From Alphaproteobacteria bacterium (GTDB lineage Bacteria; Pseudomonadota; Alphaproteobacteria; UBA828), in contig JAJDUK010000055.1 in NCBI GenBank assembly GCA_022826665.1, forward strand, positions 1 to 64,000: a stretch of DNA of 64,000 bases, in the 5' to 3' direction. Shown piece by piece: positions 7,892 to 51,623 of this stretch. The notes below the pieces were generated by a model. That model had not been told where the DNA came from and made no database searches. It saw only the letters and a program-made list of their open reading frames with translations. Position 1 is the stretch's first letter. Each line of letters starts with the position of its first letter. A program made the position numbers and the translations under genes.

Positions 7892-8794
7892 CTACGCGTT
7901 GATGTGCGAAGGCCACTCTCTGTAGAGATCCGCGCGCCGACGGCGATCCCGGAAGGTTGGAGCGACGCCTTTCTCGCGATTCTCGTAAATCTTGTCGAGG
8001 TCGACCTCGCCGTGCACCACCGTCTCGATGTTGGGCTCCGGCGATTCCGCGACGACGCCGTTCGGGGCGTCCCAAGGGGTGTCGCAAGGGCTCAGGATGG
8101 AACTGCGTGTCCAGCCAGGCGGAAGAGGCCCATCGGACGGCACGTCGGCACCGGTTGCGCAATGCACGAAATACACCTGGTTCTCGATCGCACGGGCCTG
8201 GGCACAGTGACGGACGCGCCAGAATCCGTATTCCGTGAACGTGAAGGAGGGGCACAAGATGATCTCGGCACCTTGCTCGACGAGCGTTGCGGCGCATTCT
8301 GGAATTTCTGTCTCGTAGCACACGTTAAAGCCCACTTTGGCGAACGGGAGCTCGACCATCTCGACCGTATCGCCTTCCTCGGTCGACCATTGCGCCTCGG
8401 CCGGAAAGATGTGGGTCTTGTCGTGCATGTGAATCAGTCCGTCGGGACCGTAAAGATAGGCGACGTTGAGGTATCTTCCGTCCTTCAATTCCAGATGGGA
8501 GCCGGCAACAATGTGCTGTCCTCGTTCCTTGGCCTCGCTCTCGAACAGCTGGCGGTAATCCTCGGTATAATTTGTGTTCCCGTATTGATGAACACGGGTC
8601 AACTCGGAAACGGGTAGATCCTTCCAGTCCGGAAACGTCGTAAACAGTTCGACCGTAAAGAGCTCCGGAAACAGCACTAGATCGGCACCCTTTGCCTGGT
8701 CCAACAGCCCGCGCGCATGAGCCGCAAACTCGTCAAAGCTGCCGACGGGCCTGACAACGAACTGACACGCTGCGATCGAGACGTTCCTGGGCAT
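7892..8794 (-). CDS. Carbon-nitrogen hydrolase (nitrilase superfamily amidase)
   Basis: 300 aa. The Glu-Lys-Cys triad is visible: E in LVLFPELFT (about residue 43), K in MHDKTHIFPAE (about 124) and C in FNVCYETEIPE (about 160). The fold's C-terminal half contains ILCPSFTFTEYGFWRVRHCAQARAI split around a family-like aromatic segment. It should hydrolyse a C-N bond of an amide or carbamoyl compound in the cytoplasm. It is the first gene of the minus-strand run, with 162 bp before the amidohydrolase. The start codon at 8794 is followed by the typical beta-strand NVSIAACQF. Confidence 0.88.
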   Translation of the reverse strand: MPRNVSIAACQFVVRPVGSFDEFAAHARGLLDQAKGADLVLFPELFTVELFTTFPDWKDLPVSELTRVHQYGNTNYTEDYRQLFESEAKERGQHIVAGSHLELKDGRYLNVAYLYGPDGLIHMHDKTHIFPAEAQWSTEEGDTVEMVELPFAKVGFNVCYETEIPECAATLVEQGAEIILCPSFTFTEYGFWRVRHCAQARAIENQVYFVHCATGADVPSDGPLPPGWTRSSILSPCDTPWDAPNGVVAESPEPNIETVVHGEVDLDKIYENREKGVAPTFRDRRRRADLYREWPSHINA

Positions 8795-9276
8795 GGTTCA
8801 ATCTCCCTGTGGACTCTGGGGCCAATCGTTCGTTTCGGCCGCAGGTCTGTCGCTTGGCTTTGGCGCGTGGCCGCGAACTTCGCCTCTCAATCGGAGGTCT
8901 AACCACCAATGCAAAGACATGATGACGCGGGCCGACCCTCCCGACCCATCCTATGCCGCGGCACAGATGAGGATCAAGGGCAGGCTGGGTTACGGAGAGC
9001 TCCAGTGCGCCAACTGACGCCGAGCCAGCCGTCAGGGCCATGTTGGCGGTGAGATGTGCGCGCTTCCGCCGCCAGACCACCTAGGCGGGCCTTCCGCGCC
9101 GCAGTTGTCATTCCAGCTGTGTGGCCTCGTGGTCAGAGGTGCTGCGTCCTTCCGTGGACACCGATTGCGTGCGCACACGTTCTGTAGTGCAATGAACCGC
9201 GGTCGCATAGAGCGGCTCCGAGGAGCGCCCGGACAATCCTGCGGCGCCTGGCCGATTGTTAACCAGGGAGAGACAC
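8795..9276 (+). other. Divergent intergenic region between nitrilase and deacetylase genes
   Basis: This 482-bp stretch separates two divergent genes and must hold both promoters. No ORF with convincing protein character is seen on either strand. The only clear signal is the ribosome-binding sequence AGGGAGAG just before the ATG at 9277. I could not identify convincing -35/-10 pairs or an operator. Confidence 0.4.
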
Positions 9277-10155
9277 ATGCCGGACAAGGACATTCAGGTC
9301 TGCTTCAACGTCCACTTCGACGCCGTGTCGCTTTGGATAGGGTCTTTCGGTGGTGAGGACTCGCCATGCGACATCTCGCGCGGCGTTCACGCAGCCCAAG
9401 TGGGGACGCCTCGTCTGCTCGATCTGCTTGACAAGTACGACATCACGACCACGTGGAACATTACCGGTCATTCGATCGAGAGTTTTCCTAAAGAGTCCGA
9501 GATGGTCGTTCAAGCCGGGCACGAGTTGGGCCTGCATGGATACACCCACGAAAATCCTCTGGCCATGACCAAGGAACAGGAGCAGGCCATCCTGAACAAG
9601 ACATTCGATCTGGTTGTCGATTTGTGCGGCAAACCGCCCAAGGGTTACTCGGCACCTTGGTGGGAGCTGAGCCCCAACACCATCGACTTGCTCCTGGAAA
9701 AGGGCATCGAGTACGACCACAGCCTGATGGAGAACGATCACTCTCCCTATTATCTCCGGCGAGACGATAGCTGGACCAAAATCGACTATTCTCAGCCGGC
9801 GGAAACCTGGATGACGCCGTGGCAAAGGGGGACGGAGACCGACCTAATCGAGATCCCCTGCAGTTGGTATTTGGACGATGCGCCGCCGGTCATGTTCGTG
9901 AAGAAGTTCCCGAACAGCCACGGTTGGGTCAGCCCGCGCTCCATCGGTCAGATGTGGACGGATCAGTTCGACTGGGTGTACCGCAACTGCGATTACGGCA
10001 TTTACAACGCCTGCCTGCACCCCGATGCATCAGGCCATCCGCAAATGCTCATGATGCTGGAGCGGCTGATCGATCACATGCGTTGCCACGACGGCGTGCG
10101 CTTCATGACCCTGAAGCAGATCTGCGACGAGTTCCGAGCGCGCAATCCGCGCTAG
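9277..10155 (+). CDS. NodB-type polysaccharide deacetylase / PuuE-like family protein
   Basis: 292 aa. The NodB-homology catalytic features are present: an early aspartate in NVHFDAVSLW, the His pair in GHELGLHGYTHE (H-x3-H), GYSAPWWELSPNT and a C-terminal CLHPDASGHPQM. Family members remove N-acyl groups from sugars; a close alphaproteobacterial branch acts on cyclic ureides or imides (PuuE-type allantoinase), and the neighbouring amidase genes make that alternative attractive. The ATG at 9277 is preferred over an upstream TTG because of its ribosome site. Confidence 0.82.
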   Translation: MPDKDIQVCFNVHFDAVSLWIGSFGGEDSPCDISRGVHAAQVGTPRLLDLLDKYDITTTWNITGHSIESFPKESEMVVQAGHELGLHGYTHENPLAMTKEQEQAILNKTFDLVVDLCGKPPKGYSAPWWELSPNTIDLLLEKGIEYDHSLMENDHSPYYLRRDDSWTKIDYSQPAETWMTPWQRGTETDLIEIPCSWYLDDAPPVMFVKKFPNSHGWVSPRSIGQMWTDQFDWVYRNCDYGIYNACLHPDASGHPQMLMMLERLIDHMRCHDGVRFMTLKQICDEFRARNPR

Positions 10156-10207
10156 GCAAGCTGAATAGAGTTCGCCAACGGCAGTTTGCTTGTCCGGGCG
10201 TAGTCGA

Positions 10208-10254
10208 GAGGCGGATTCCGCGAGCTGGGTCCTCGCCCATCGCGGGTCCGCCTC
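10208..10254. terminator. Hairpin between convergent genes, possible bidirectional terminator
   Basis: GAGGCGGA (10208-10215) pairs with TCCGCCTC (10247-10254), and CCGCG (10218-10222) pairs with CGCGG (10241-10245) across a small internal loop. It lies between the stops of the convergent genes at 10155 and 10283, where a terminator is expected. No T-run follows, so function is uncertain. Confidence 0.35.
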
Positions 10255-10282
10255 TGCACCCTCGGAACGTCCGTTGGGCCGC

Positions 10283-10633
10283 TTACGCGGTCTCGCTCCG
10301 TGTCACAGGGCCGGCTTCGCCGAGTTGCGAGAGGAGCTGCGGATCGAGCGGGTCGATCGGCTTCAAGGCGATGTCCTCGACGGTCATCCAGATCTGCGGC
10401 AGCTGCTCGACGACTTCCGTCCGTCCGCGATGACTGTGTACCAGGTACTGACCGCCGGCCCAGTCGTCGACCTTGCAGCCGTAGTGACGCAGAATCTTGT
10501 TGATGAGTTTCAGACGATAGGCGCGGTCGACAAATCTCGCATTGCCCACCGGCGCGACCCCGCTGCGCCCTACGTCCGTGCCCGCCTCGGTCCAGTGCGG
10601 CCCGCTCGTGAACATGGTGCAGAACGCGCACAT
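10283..10633 (-). CDS. Small hypothetical protein with N-terminal CxxC
   Basis: 116 aa, no family recognised with certainty. It starts MCAFC, then GPHWTEAG, and has an alpha/beta-looking body with RLKLINKILRHYGCKVDDW and GQYLVHSHRGRTEVVEQLP, ending in DPLDPQLLSQLGEAGP. A good ribosome site (GGGGTGAGG about 10 nt upstream of the ATG) and amino-acid use typical of a real protein support coding. The CxxC plus HW could bind a metal or cofactor, which is inference. It follows the gene at 11127 on the same strand with a 47-bp gap, so the two may be co-transcribed. Confidence 0.65.
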   Translation of the reverse strand: MCAFCTMFTSGPHWTEAGTDVGRSGVAPVGNARFVDRAYRLKLINKILRHYGCKVDDWAGGQYLVHSHRGRTEVVEQLPQIWMTVEDIALKPIDPLDPQLLSQLGEAGPVTRSETA

Positions 10634-11408: not shown

Positions 11409-12086
11409 ATGGCAATGAAGAACAAGTACGCGAGGCGTTCGAGGATCTCGGAAGGCAAGGTCCGCGAGCTGGTTCGTTACTTCGCCGCCGATCTGACCGC
11501 CCTCCAGGCGGCGACGCTGAGCGGTCTGAACCGCAACACCGTGAACCGGTTCTACCGCAGCTTGCGCGAACGCATCCTGGTCGCCTGTGAGGCCCAGCGT
11601 CCGCTGTTCGGGATCGTCGAGGTCGACGAGAGCTTCTTCGGGGCGCGCCGGGTCAAGGGCAGGCGCGGGCGCGGTGCCTACGGCAAGACCGTCGTCTTCG
11701 GCATCTTCGAGCGCCAGGGCCAAGTCTACACCGAGATTGTGCCTGACTGCTCGAGGCCGACCCTGCAGGGCATCATCCGCGGCCGGGTGGACCCCAGCAC
11801 CGACATCAACTCCGATGGCTGGCGCGGCTACAACGGGCTGGTCGACCTCGGCTACGGTCACTTCCGCGTCGATCATTCCAAGGACGAGTTCACCAACGGC
11901 ACCACCCACATCAACGGCATCGAAGGCTTCTGGGGCTTGGCAAAGGTCCGCCTGACGAAGTTCAAGGGCCTCCCCCGGCACACCTTCCATCTGCACCTCA
12001 AGGAAACCGAATGGCGGTTCAACCACCGCAAAGCCGACAAGTACAAAATCCTACTACGCTACCTCCGCCAAAATCCCCTCAGCTAG
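11409..12086 (+). CDS. IS1595-family transposase (ISXO2-like DDE domain)
   Basis: 225 aa. The ISXO2-like catalytic core is visible: first Asp in GIVEVDESFFGARRVKG, second Asp in INSDGWRGYNG, and the third acidic/Asn position in THINGIEGFWGLAK, followed by the H-L-H-L-K-E-x-E-W-R-F-N-H segment typical of the family. An N-terminal helix-turn-helix (SGLNRNTVNRFYRSLRE) replaces the zinc ribbon found in longer members. The stop TAG (12084-12086) lies inside the right inverted repeat. The ATG at 11409 was taken; 11415 is a second choice. The ORF is intact, so the element may still move. Confidence 0.9.
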   Translation: MAMKNKYARRSRISEGKVRELVRYFAADLTALQAATLSGLNRNTVNRFYRSLRERILVACEAQRPLFGIVEVDESFFGARRVKGRRGRGAYGKTVVFGIFERQGQVYTEIVPDCSRPTLQGIIRGRVDPSTDINSDGWRGYNGLVDLGYGHFRVDHSKDEFTNGTTHINGIEGFWGLAKVRLTKFKGLPRHTFHLHLKETEWRFNHRKADKYKILLRYLRQNPLS

Positions 12087-12095
12087 GCAAGACCC
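12078..12095 (+). repeat. Right terminal inverted repeat of the IS1595-type element
   Basis: 18 bp, perfect complement of 11363-11380; contains the transposase stop codon. Confidence 0.85.
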
Positions 12096-12173
12096 TTAAA
12101 TCTGCTTATCCGTGACACTCCGTCACTAATGGCATATGTTCTCAATATGTTCTGCTATACGAAGGTCACGGAT

Positions 12174-12445
12174 ATGGCGTTCAAGGTGGCATCGCGGGTG
12201 CGCGGATTGAGCGACGAGGTCTTTCGCGAAGCTTTCGGTACGGAGGAGCAGTGCCGCAAGGCGCTGGTTCGGCTGCGCTGGCCGGGCGGCTTCGTCTGCC
12301 CCGCTTGCGGTCATCGCGGTCATCGCGAGTTGGCGGGTCGGGGGCTTTACCAATTGCAACCACTGCAAGAAGCAAACCTCGCCCACGGCGGGCCCGATCT
12401 TCCATTCGACCAAGCTGCCGCTGAGGTGTTGTTCGGCGCGCAAAT
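12174..12445 (+). pseudogene. Truncated, frameshifted IS1595-family transposase N-terminus (zinc-ribbon type)
   Basis: The frame from 12174 encodes GLSDEVFREAFGTEEQCRKA, then LRWPGGFVCPACGHRGHRE, the N-terminal zinc-ribbon region of IS1595 transposases. Near 12350 the frame breaks: the next frame continues as CNHCKKQTSPTAGPIFHSTK, which supplies the second CxxC and the expected continuation. Homology stops after about 12420 and the catalytic domain is absent. This is a different member from the intact element 80 bp upstream. Confidence 0.8.
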
Positions 12446-12771
12446 TGGACGCCGATCGGTGTGGTAACGCTCTGATTCCCTTTGATTCTGAGGGGCTACA
12501 GGAAGACGCCGAACAACACGCAGCGGGCCAGACCGGTCAACAGGGCCCGGCCGCCCCGGCCCGACTTACGCGAGGCGCGCCTCTTCATGTGGGCGTTCTC
12601 AAACAGCGTCCGCTGGTTCTCCTCGAAACACTCCCAGGTGATTGCCATGGCACTGGCACGAGCCATGGGTGTATAGTGGCGAGATTGACAACAACGCAGG
12701 CTGCGCCGCGAAAACAGGCGGCTGTCGGGCACGTTTCAGTTTATGTGGCGAACCGCAGTGGGAGGCTGAGC
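12446..12771 (+). other. Intergenic region after the transposase remnant
   Basis: 326 bp between the transposase remnant and the binding-protein gene. A TTGACA at 12685-12690 is present but lacks a good -10 at standard spacing. A 50-codon antisense frame (12496-12648) exists without supporting evidence. The ribosome site GGGAGGC lies just before the ATG at 12772. Nothing else was recognised. Confidence 0.35.
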
Positions 12772-13965
12772 ATGAGCGAAAAGTTGCGTATTCCGGACAT
12801 ATCGCGCCGCGACGTGCTTAAGGGCACGGCGGCTGCCGCGACTCTGGCGGCCGCTGGATCGCTGGCAACGACGCGCGCGGCGCAGGCGGCGTCCACGACG
12901 GTGAAGGGCTACGGCGTCACCACGTCGCAGCTCAAGGACTGGTCCATCATGGAGAAGGCCATCGGCATCACGATGGAATTCACCGGGACCAACGCCGACA
13001 TCGGCACCTACATGCGTGACGTGATCTCGAACGACCTCGGCGAGACGCACGATATCTTCATCTTCGACGGCGGGACCGAGGACATCCTGGGTCCCCAGGG
13101 CTACTACGCTACCGTCATCGAGGATCACCCGAACCTCGAGCTCTGGGGGCGCACCTCCGACGATTGGAAGCGCACCGACCTGCTGCAGGACTACGACGGC
13201 AACCAGTACGGCGTGCCCGTCATCGGTAATGCGGACAGCTTCGGCTACTTCCCCGAGGCCATCGGCGCCAACCCGGAGGGTCTCGACGAGATCCCCTGGA
13301 GCAAGATGTTCGAGGACGAGGACACCAAGGGCCGCGTCTCGCTCGACCGCAGCTGGCTGCTGTCGAGCCCCGAGGTCGGCCTTTACCTCAAGGCCAACGG
13401 TCGGGCCGAGATCGAAGACGTCGCCAACATGACCGGTGAGGAGGCCCGCGTGGTCGCGGACTTCGCGGCCGACCGCAAGCGTGCCGGGCAGTTCCGCTCA
13501 CTCCACGCAGCCTTCGAGGAGCAGGTGCAGCTTCTCAGCAACAAGGAGATCGACCTGATCAACTGCTGGGAGCCGGCCACCAAGGAGGCCAACAACATCC
13601 TCGGCCCCGGCACGGTGATCTACGCCTTCACGGTCGAGGGCTATTACAAGTGGGGCCACGGCGCCTACATGCACACCAAGGCCGGCGAGCGCGACAACGT
13701 CGACAACATCTACAAGGTGCTCAACTACTACATGACCGGCGAGTATCGCGCCTATCAGGCGATCCAGCGCGGCTACGCCGGGCCCAACATGGACCTCGGC
13801 GTCAAGTACGCGGAGGAGAACGGCTGGCCGCAGGAGCAGATCGACGAGCTCAAGTGGACCGAGGTGAAGGTCAACAAGAAGTTCGAGAAGCCCTTCTTCG
13901 GCAAGCCCGCGGCGCCGAACTCCGATGTCATGGAAGAGGAGTGGCAGCGGTTCCTAAACGCCTGA
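12772..13965 (+). CDS. Tat-exported ABC substrate-binding protein, spermidine/putrescine (PotD) type
   Basis: 397 aa. A twin-arginine signal (SRRDVLKGTAAAATLAAAG) ends near RAAQAAS. The mature protein has the family-1 extracellular solute-binding pattern: DIFIFDGGTEDIL, YGVPVIGNADSFGYFPEAI, INCWEPATKEANN and a C-terminal GEYRAYQAIQRGYAGPNMD. It should bind a polyamine-like or other small cationic solute in the periplasm. Start is set at 12772 by the ribosome site GGGAGGC; the open frame extends upstream to 12445 without coding character. Two permease genes follow, but no ATPase gene is present. Confidence 0.88.
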   Translation: MSEKLRIPDISRRDVLKGTAAAATLAAAGSLATTRAAQAASTTVKGYGVTTSQLKDWSIMEKAIGITMEFTGTNADIGTYMRDVISNDLGETHDIFIFDGGTEDILGPQGYYATVIEDHPNLELWGRTSDDWKRTDLLQDYDGNQYGVPVIGNADSFGYFPEAIGANPEGLDEIPWSKMFEDEDTKGRVSLDRSWLLSSPEVGLYLKANGRAEIEDVANMTGEEARVVADFAADRKRAGQFRSLHAAFEEQVQLLSNKEIDLINCWEPATKEANNILGPGTVIYAFTVEGYYKWGHGAYMHTKAGERDNVDNIYKVLNYYMTGEYRAYQAIQRGYAGPNMDLGVKYAEENGWPQEQIDELKWTEVKVNKKFEKPFFGKPAAPNSDVMEEEWQRFLNA

Positions 13966-49470: not shown

Positions 49471-51360
49471 CTATTCGCCGATGGCCGGTCGGTAGGTCCC
49501 GAAGTTCCAGAGGTGGCCTTCCGGGTCGCGTGCCGAATAGTCGCGGGAGCCGTAGGGCGTGTTCTCCAACTCGCGAACGATCTCGGCTCCGGCCTCGACG
49601 GCGCGCTCGTAGTGGGTGTCCGCATCCTCGACCACGATATAGATCGACTGAGTGACGCCGCCGAGGTCGCAGGGCGTCCGCATCTGGAGCTCGTCGTCTC
49701 GTATCGAGCCCACCATGACCACGCCGCCATCGAACGCGAGCTGGGCATGGGCAATCGTGTCGTCGGGACCCGGAACAACGAAGTTCTCGCTGAAGCCGAA
49801 GGCCTTCTTGAGCCATTCAATCGCCGCGGGCGCGTCTCGGTAGCTAAGGCATGGAATGATGGAGGGACCTGTCTCGGTCATGGCGGCATCCTTCATGCTC
49901 TGTAGTAAGGGGTGCTCGGCGGGGCGTTCGGCCTCGACCTGCGCTTCTGGGGCTGGCGGCGGAGGCTGCTCCTCCGCCTCCGGCTGTATGGGCTCCGCCA
50001 CCGTCTCCGGCCGCTCGGGCTGGACTTCGGCTTCGAGCAGGGCGTGTTCGAAGCAGCGCGCAGTGTTGCGGCCCGGTGGGCCGAGGGCGAGGAACGCATC
50101 GTACGGCAGGCCGAGGGTCTGGCCGACCTCCTCCACCTCTTCAACCGTCCGCAGTTCAAGGAAGCCCTCGTCCGCCTCTGCGACTTCGACGATGAAGGTG
50201 GTGGTCACGGCCTGCCGGTTTTCGTCCAGCACCACCGGCCCACCGAACGGCGTGTCGAATTCCAGCTCGGAGAGGGCTTCGCGCAGGCTTTCGTGACCCT
50301 CCCCGAGCTCACCGTCAGTCTCTTCCAGGGCGAGAAACAGCGCCTTGGCATTGACGTAATAGGAGAGCGCGAAAAGGCTCGGCGCCGGGTCTGCGTCCGG
50401 GGAGCCCTCCCGGTAGCGCTCTGTGAACGCCTCCCAGTCGTCGTTGTCGTCGCTCTCCGATACCGGCAGCGCCGAAATCGCACCCTCCAGCAAGGGGCGG
50501 ATGGCGTCGCCCGCGCGCAAGAGGCTGCCGCTGAGCGTCGTCGAGCTCGCCACGATGGCGGCCTGACCACCGGCCTTGCCATAGGCTTCGAGGAAGCTCT
50601 TCGCCGTGCGGGGGTCCAGCGCCAGGAGCAGCGCGTCCGTCTCGGCACGGGCGACCCTCTCTGCGAGACGCGTGGTATCGCTCGCGCCGGGGGAGACCCA
50701 GTGGTTCCCCAGCACGTGGCCGCCTGCGGCGCAATAATCCAGCATGAAGCCCATGAGCTGGGTGTAGGGCAGGGAATAGTCCTCTCCCACCGTCACGATC
50801 GTGCGGATGTCCTTCTCGTCGTAAGCGTAGCGACCGAGTCCCCCGATCCACTGCATGCTGTCGGGGTTGAAGCGGAAGAAGTTTTCGGCCGGCGCGCGCA
50901 AGGTGGCATCCTGCGCGGCCGACGCCCCGTTGATGAAAGTCACGTCCGGCACGCTCTTGGCGAATTCGCGGATCGCGATTCCTTCGATGCCGGCGAGGGG
51001 GCCGATGACGATGCTGGCGCCGCCATCGATCAGCAGGCGCGCTTTCGCGACCACCGAGTCCGGCGTCCCGTCCGTGGACTCGATGAGGGTCTCGATGGGC
51101 CGCTCGCCGTCGCCCTCCTCGTGCTCCTGCACGGCAATTTCGTAGCCGCGCAGGGCATCCCGGCCGAGCGGCTCGAACGCCCCTTCAAGGGTCGCGAGCA
51201 CGCCGATCTTTAGGGTGTCCGTTTCGGCGTTCGCCTGAGCGCCGATCAGGAAAGGTGTGGCGAGCAGGACGGCCCACGCCATGCGGCGAAGAGCGCATGG
51301 CGTGGGACCGCGGACTCGCCCAGGTCGTCCGCTTGCTGAGCGTGGCGGTGCCTTCGTCAC
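49471..51360 (-). CDS. Exported leucine/amide-binding-type periplasmic protein fused to a VOC (glyoxalase-like) domain
   Basis: 629 aa in one uninterrupted frame. Residues about 27-45 form a signal peptide (WAVLLATPFLIGAQANA). Residues about 50-420 are a type-1 periplasmic binding domain (LKIGVLATLEGAFEPLGRDA, then LLIDGGASIVIGPLAGIEG). A Pro/Glu-rich linker leads to a VOC domain (about 494-629: IIPCLSYRDAPAAIEWLKKA through DPEGHLWNFGTYRP). The VOC part has its own ATG at 49881 with AAGGA 9 nt upstream, so separate translation is possible. The GTG start at 51360 lacks a ribosome site; ATG 51282 gives a compact signal peptide. Function of the fusion is unknown. Confidence 0.8.
   Translation of the reverse strand: MTKAPPRSASGRPGRVRGPTPCALRRMAWAVLLATPFLIGAQANAETDTLKIGVLATLEGAFEPLGRDALRGYEIAVQEHEEGDGERPIETLIESTDGTPDSVVAKARLLIDGGASIVIGPLAGIEGIAIREFAKSVPDVTFINGASAAQDATLRAPAENFFRFNPDSMQWIGGLGRYAYDEKDIRTIVTVGEDYSLPYTQLMGFMLDYCAAGGHVLGNHWVSPGASDTTRLAERVARAETDALLLALDPRTAKSFLEAYGKAGGQAAIVASSTTLSGSLLRAGDAIRPLLEGAISALPVSESDDNDDWEAFTERYREGSPDADPAPSLFALSYYVNAKALFLALEETDGELGEGHESLREALSELEFDTPFGGPVVLDENRQAVTTTFIVEVAEADEGFLELRTVEEVEEVGQTLGLPYDAFLALGPPGRNTARCFEHALLEAEVQPERPETVAEPIQPEAEEQPPPPAPEAQVEAERPAEHPLLQSMKDAAMTETGPSIIPCLSYRDAPAAIEWLKKAFGFSENFVVPGPDDTIAHAQLAFDGGVVMVGSIRDDELQMRTPCDLGGVTQSIYIVVEDADTHYERAVEAGAEIVRELENTPYGSRDYSARDPEGHLWNFGTYRPAIGE
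51273..51306. promoter_or_regulatory. Perfect 13-bp stem-loop at the 5' end of the binding protein/VOC gene
   Basis: CCCACGCCATGCG (51273-51285) is perfectly complementary to CGCATGGCGTGGG (51294-51306), with an 8-nt loop. It covers the internal ATG at 51282. In RNA it could hide that start; in DNA it could be an operator in the divergent region with the gene at 51624. Confidence 0.55.
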
Positions 51361-51623
51361 GCTATGCCGATCATGTCAAATGTATGCCACTCAAAACATT
51401 GGAAGTTTGGCGGAGCGTCCCAGCGCTCGCGCGACACCGGAGCAAGCCCTTATAGCCGCCTGCACCGGCCAACGCCATGCGCGCGTCGCAAGGCACGGCA
51501 GGAGCGTCCGCTCGATTCCGGTCGTGACCGCTCTGGCCTCAGAGGCTAGGCTATCAGCCAGCGGGTAGCCGGCGCTTGGCTTCGTGAGTCCGGCCCGGCG
51601 CCCTGAAAAGGGAGGAAGCAAAC

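Follow-up and report, generated by a model that had tools for sequence, protein, structure and literature searches.

Comparison of related genomes indicates that, in a small group of uncultured alphaproteobacteria, a VOC domain is joined in frame to a periplasmic nutrient-binding protein; VOC proteins are normally cytoplasmic and encoded separately. The gene was found in the window, a 64,000-nucleotide stretch of DNA, where it occupies 51360..49471 of the minus strand as a single open frame, 629 codons long, with a GTG start and a TAG stop. We consider it somewhat more probable than the alternatives taken together that this is a selectively kept and exported fusion of a solute-binding protein (SBP) and a VOC domain, with the VOC domain possibly also made as a second, cytoplasmic product.

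Results

The fusion gene

The initial annotation had read the frame as a signal peptide, a binding domain, a Pro/Glu-rich linker and a complete VOC domain, and both the open reading frame and Pfam agree with this reading (Table 1), with matches in one frame to Peripla_BP_6 (aa 49-394, E 1.2e-44) and to Glyoxalase (PF00903, aa 506-620, E 4.8e-13). On the side that also carries YtoQ, the gene converges with a cupin gene; on the other it diverges from the operon of a different ABC transporter that has its own SBP (SBP_bac_8), encoded by the first gene. Liv-type ABC permease and ATPase genes, usual though not strictly defining partners, are absent next to the fusion gene, and the SBP is an orphan in this genus. 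The GTG start in the window has no clear Shine-Dalgarno (SD) sequence. A five-codon mini-ORF lies out of frame at this point (ATG ATC GGC ATA GCG TGA, window 51357-51374, minus strand), its TGA overlapping the GTG start of the fusion (GTGA), and is found at the same place in L004-L009; all seven genomes retain its ATG and the GTGACGAA amid variable surroundings. Its role could be that of a leader in translational coupling or of a promoter element.

Table 1. Positions in the window of the fusion gene and its parts
Feature	Position	Strand	Basis
Complete fusion ORF, 629 aa	49471..51360	-	ORF and Pfam; kept in 7 genomes
Signal-peptide-like N-terminus, aa 1-45, ending ...QANA	51226..51360	-	By eye
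Peripla_BP_6 solute-binding domain, aa 46-436, up to conserved Cys436	50053..51225	-	Pfam, orthologues, structure prediction
Pro/Glu/Asp/Ala-rich linker, aa 437-493 (~57 residues); 446-496 predicted disordered	49882..50052	-	Composition, AlphaFold
Shine-Dalgarno-like GAAGGAT, upstream of internal ATG	49888..49894	-	Sequence comparison
Internal ATG (Met494), invariant in 7/7, at start point of separate VOC proteins	49879..49881	-	
VOC domain (TioX-like), aa 494-629, without GloA-type metal ligands; invariant cysteines at 504 and 564	49474..49881	-	

Distribution across genomes

A full-length open fusion is present in seven of eight same-genus genomes (its own included), with copies 64-87% identical to the window copy over the whole length; the eighth genome, which is 67% complete, gave no full-length match. 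Relatives found by name are metagenome-assembled genomes labelled Alphaproteobacteria or Rhodospirillales. The conservation of the frame across the genus, with six other genomes showing it at full length, refutes the explanation that a stop-codon loss, a frameshift or an assembly error joined the two parts recently and only in the window genome. The lost stop codon or local accident that had initially been allowed for thus has a negligible probability, and on sequence grounds the joined frame is real and conserved, and it predates the divergence of the genus members sampled. Most neighbouring proteins at the same loci change more slowly than the fusion protein; the neighbours are roughly 70-98% identical, most of them >90%.

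Elsewhere in the family, several genera have an SBP orthologue without a VOC domain behind it, and the rest gave weak matches or none. No second fusion of a periplasmic binding protein (PBP) to a VOC domain was found in 385 genomes of the class and 398 of the phylum (~780; the sets overlap slightly), which bears out the earlier impression of an unusual domain order. SBP orthologues and VOC homologues are both present in these sets and never share one frame; within the genomes searched, the fusion is therefore restricted to the genus. A literature search, with most subscription papers outside its coverage, returned no paper on such a PBP-VOC fusion. The combination of domains is new, and both families are already known. 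Long open frames at five separate VOC genes (G658, G760, G589, G701, G250) were considered as candidates and rejected, as their extra stretches look unrelated or antisense. Another architecture, with the opposite domain order from the fusion, occurs in L134 (1229-2200, plus strand), where an N-terminal TioX-like VOC domain precedes a single hydrophobic segment that resembles a transmembrane helix and a tail that is rich in Ala and Pro and resembles a coiled coil.

The two domains

The solute-binding part matches PF13458 over the whole domain (153.8 bits against a cutoff of 31.7, positions 1-339 of 343), and a Foldseek search with the predicted model identified a type-1 PBP fold (4zpj, E 4.5e-24, TM by target 0.88), with further structural matches to aromatic-acid and amino-acid binding proteins. 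Its dN/dS of 0.14-0.41 indicates purifying selection. Liv/Amide-type binding proteins (PF13458; 4zpj, 4ey3/4eyg) resemble aa 46-430 of the fusion in sequence and fold, and their orthologous members share Cys210 and the C-terminal Cys436 with it; they end within a few residues of Cys436, whereas the fusion runs on into the linker and the VOC domain. In four distant members of the class the orthologue examined sits in a Liv-type ABC operon (one annotated: G049, L097), in contrast to the orphan SBP of the fusion. The L097 operon contains an in-frame fusion of an ABC ATPase with both UPF0261 domains (8106-10481), followed by a gene for a PEP-hydrolase-like TIM-barrel protein, and by sequence similarity L098, L099 and L100 have the same gene order; plant Tm-1-like proteins consist of UPF0261 plus a TIM-barrel domain (PMC5028733). 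In the window genome, a PEP-hydrolase-like gene lies ~4 kb from a distant SBP paralogue (22%; G000:C57:6726-7523 and 11913-12938), so a replacement of the operon-type SBP may have left the orthologue an orphan.

The C-terminal part matches PF00903 with 50 bits against 20.6 (positions 8-121 of 121), its predicted order of strands and helices fits paired beta-alpha-beta-beta-beta modules, and its dN/dS of 0.07-0.37 again indicates purifying selection. The nearest PDB entry is TioX (3itw, E 1.9e-20), with bleomycin-binding proteins much weaker, and the VOC fold is that of TioX/bleomycin-resistance-type proteins (3itw, 1byl, 2zhp; PF00903). VOC homologues in the class and phylum are short, separate genes, whereas the VOC domain of the fusion is tethered behind a predicted exported domain and has two invariant cysteines. 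The initial annotation had proposed a metal-binding VOC fold. The metal ligands of Escherichia coli GloA, H5, E56, H74 and E122, correspond to Ile502 (with the edge of the profile alignment extended by two residues), Val550 (by eye), and Ser572 and Asn619 (both by profile alignment). None of these four positions in the fusion carries a usual metal ligand, so metal binding is unsupported, and by analogy with its structural relatives the domain is more likely a binding module than a metal enzyme.

The junction and the linker

Separate SBP orthologues stop at the cysteine that corresponds to C436 or a few residues from it (...NPEC-stop, ...PSCP-stop), and it is there that the linker begins. At the other end, separate VOC genes have their start codon 3-13 residues ahead of the motif proline (P503), and Met494 of the fusion lies 9 ahead; some separate VOC proteins even open with near-identical residues (MTDTAPNIYPCLRY in L110 and MPEHGSTIIPCLRY in L131, against MTETGPSIIPCLSY in the fusion). 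Met494 is thus the counterpart of the VOC start codon, and by these alignments the linker is the sole new stretch of the fusion.

Measured from where the LGPP(G/S)R motif ends, the linker spans 60-68 codons across the seven sequences. None of the seven has an in-frame stop there, against a total of 13 stops in the other two forward frames; a stop-free linker would be expected by chance with a probability of ~0.0015 (dinucleotide model, the seven treated as independent). GC content by codon position (~0.83/0.50/0.82) follows the pattern of coding DNA. Amino acid identity is just 20-65%, yet proline (11-19%) and Asp+Glu (24-34%) are maintained, in keeping with the Pro/Glu-rich linker first described. 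The dN/dS of 0.37-1.5 is near-neutral, which alone could also suit a poorly constrained stretch. In the AlphaFold model, computed from a 45-sequence alignment (a 7-sequence alignment gave a pLDDT of 47), the linker has pLDDT <50 and both domains are mostly >90. With its fast change and its fixed frame and composition, the linker behaves in sequence and model as a disordered tether.

Cysteines and export

By eye, the N-terminus resembles a Sec signal peptide, with a basic n-region, a hydrophobic AWAVLLATPFLIGA and an AxA-like end at A45; the segment is fast-evolving, with the hydrophobic core and A43/A45 retained in all seven copies. The mature protein would have exactly four cysteines, all invariant in the seven sequences, of which C210 and C436 lie in the SBP and C504 and C564 in the VOC domain; C22, which is the window's own, falls in the signal peptide. 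Among 37 separate VOC proteins C564 occurs in none and C504 in six, which weakens the notion that both VOC cysteines came with the fusion and leaves only C564 as unique. Other cysteines, common in separate VOC proteins, are absent from the fused one. Even cysteine numbers are favoured in exported proteins (PMC7678975), and the four-cysteine pattern fits export and supports a putative disulfide in an exported VOC domain. The claim of an exported SBP-VOC fusion is supported to this extent, and the whole chain is probably exported.

An internal start at Met494

An SD-like GAAGGA(C/T/A) or GAGGAG lies 7-9 nt upstream of Met494 in all seven genomes (five relatives carry GAAGGA and L008 carries GAGGAG). 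Predicted anti-SD duplex energies at Met494 range from -5.4 to -8.8 kcal/mol, and in every one of the seven sequences no other internal Met pairs as strongly; for the weaker five (-5.4 to -5.7 kcal/mol), ~15% of the internal ATGs of neighbouring genes pair equally well. Nucleotide identity jumps at codon 490, that is, at the SD and ahead of the VOC fold. Because a start codon of separate genes and an SD-like sequence are kept in every copy, a short cytoplasmic VOC protein may be made, and we judge the chances of internal initiation at Met494 to be about even. An internal ribosome-binding site is known in the endolysin LysIME-EF1 (PMC7098653) and in Cas11b (PMC11899642), with a further precedent elsewhere (PMC4777826). 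As in the fusion gene, LysIME-EF1, the CTP1L endolysin and Cas11b have an internal ATG and SD-like site at a domain boundary; the two putative products of the fusion gene would, unlike theirs, lie in different compartments.

The same observations could be read as a nested gene, in which the long frame past Cys436 is a tolerated extension, the VOC domain that ends the exported chain has no useful role, and the VOC that functions is a short cytoplasmic product from Met494. The invariant ATG where separate VOC genes naturally start, the SD-like sequence in every copy, the conserved block that opens before the fold and the precedents of LysIME-EF1 and Cas11b would all suit such an arrangement. We nevertheless think it quite unlikely, as the frame and composition of the linker have been kept over a long divergence, for which a reason would be needed if the long chain were useless, and as the four-cysteine pattern suits an oxidising periplasm, as does C564, which is new in the fused VOC.

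A sub-case of our main explanation, without the second product, is that the long exported protein is the sole product and that Met494 and its SD-like sequence are relics of a captured VOC gene. Here the invariance of Ala493 and Pro499, which have no role in initiation and are as invariant as Met494, tempers the argument from the conservation of the start codon, and SD pairing, moderate in five of the seven, is below that of most separate VOC genes. A mere relic is harder to reconcile with L008, in which the SD sits at a different position but is just as good, and with the almost complete turnover of the linker residues flanking the SD and Met494. We regard the relic as a tentative possibility, somewhat short of even. 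Since a VOC start and a ribosome-binding-like sequence are retained within the frame, the readings of two proteins and of a fusion need not exclude each other and may both apply.

Discussion

In the explanation that we prefer, that of a selectively kept, exported fusion, an orphan Liv-type periplasmic SBP would be joined in frame, by a disordered acidic and proline-rich linker, to a TioX-like VOC domain, and a Sec-type signal would export the whole chain as a periplasmic two-module binder. The SBP would capture one small molecule, and the tethered, non-metal VOC domain would bind or sequester a second or the same compound; we infer that the most likely role of the VOC domain is to sequester a compound related to the SBP ligand. 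From the ancestral VOC start and ribosome-binding-like sequence inside the frame, a cytoplasmic VOC of 136 aa may arise as a second product. In its fullest form, which we think rather unlikely, one gene would yield a disulfide-bonded exported SBP-VOC protein and an identical cytoplasmic VOC, acting on the same compound in both compartments.

A fixed, exported VOC domain tethered to a solute-binding protein would equip a transport receptor with a second binding or protective function in a new way. The seven orthologues are a ready comparative set. Should the internal start prove functional, the gene would also be a clean natural case of a single frame from which one domain is made in both exported and cytoplasmic versions.
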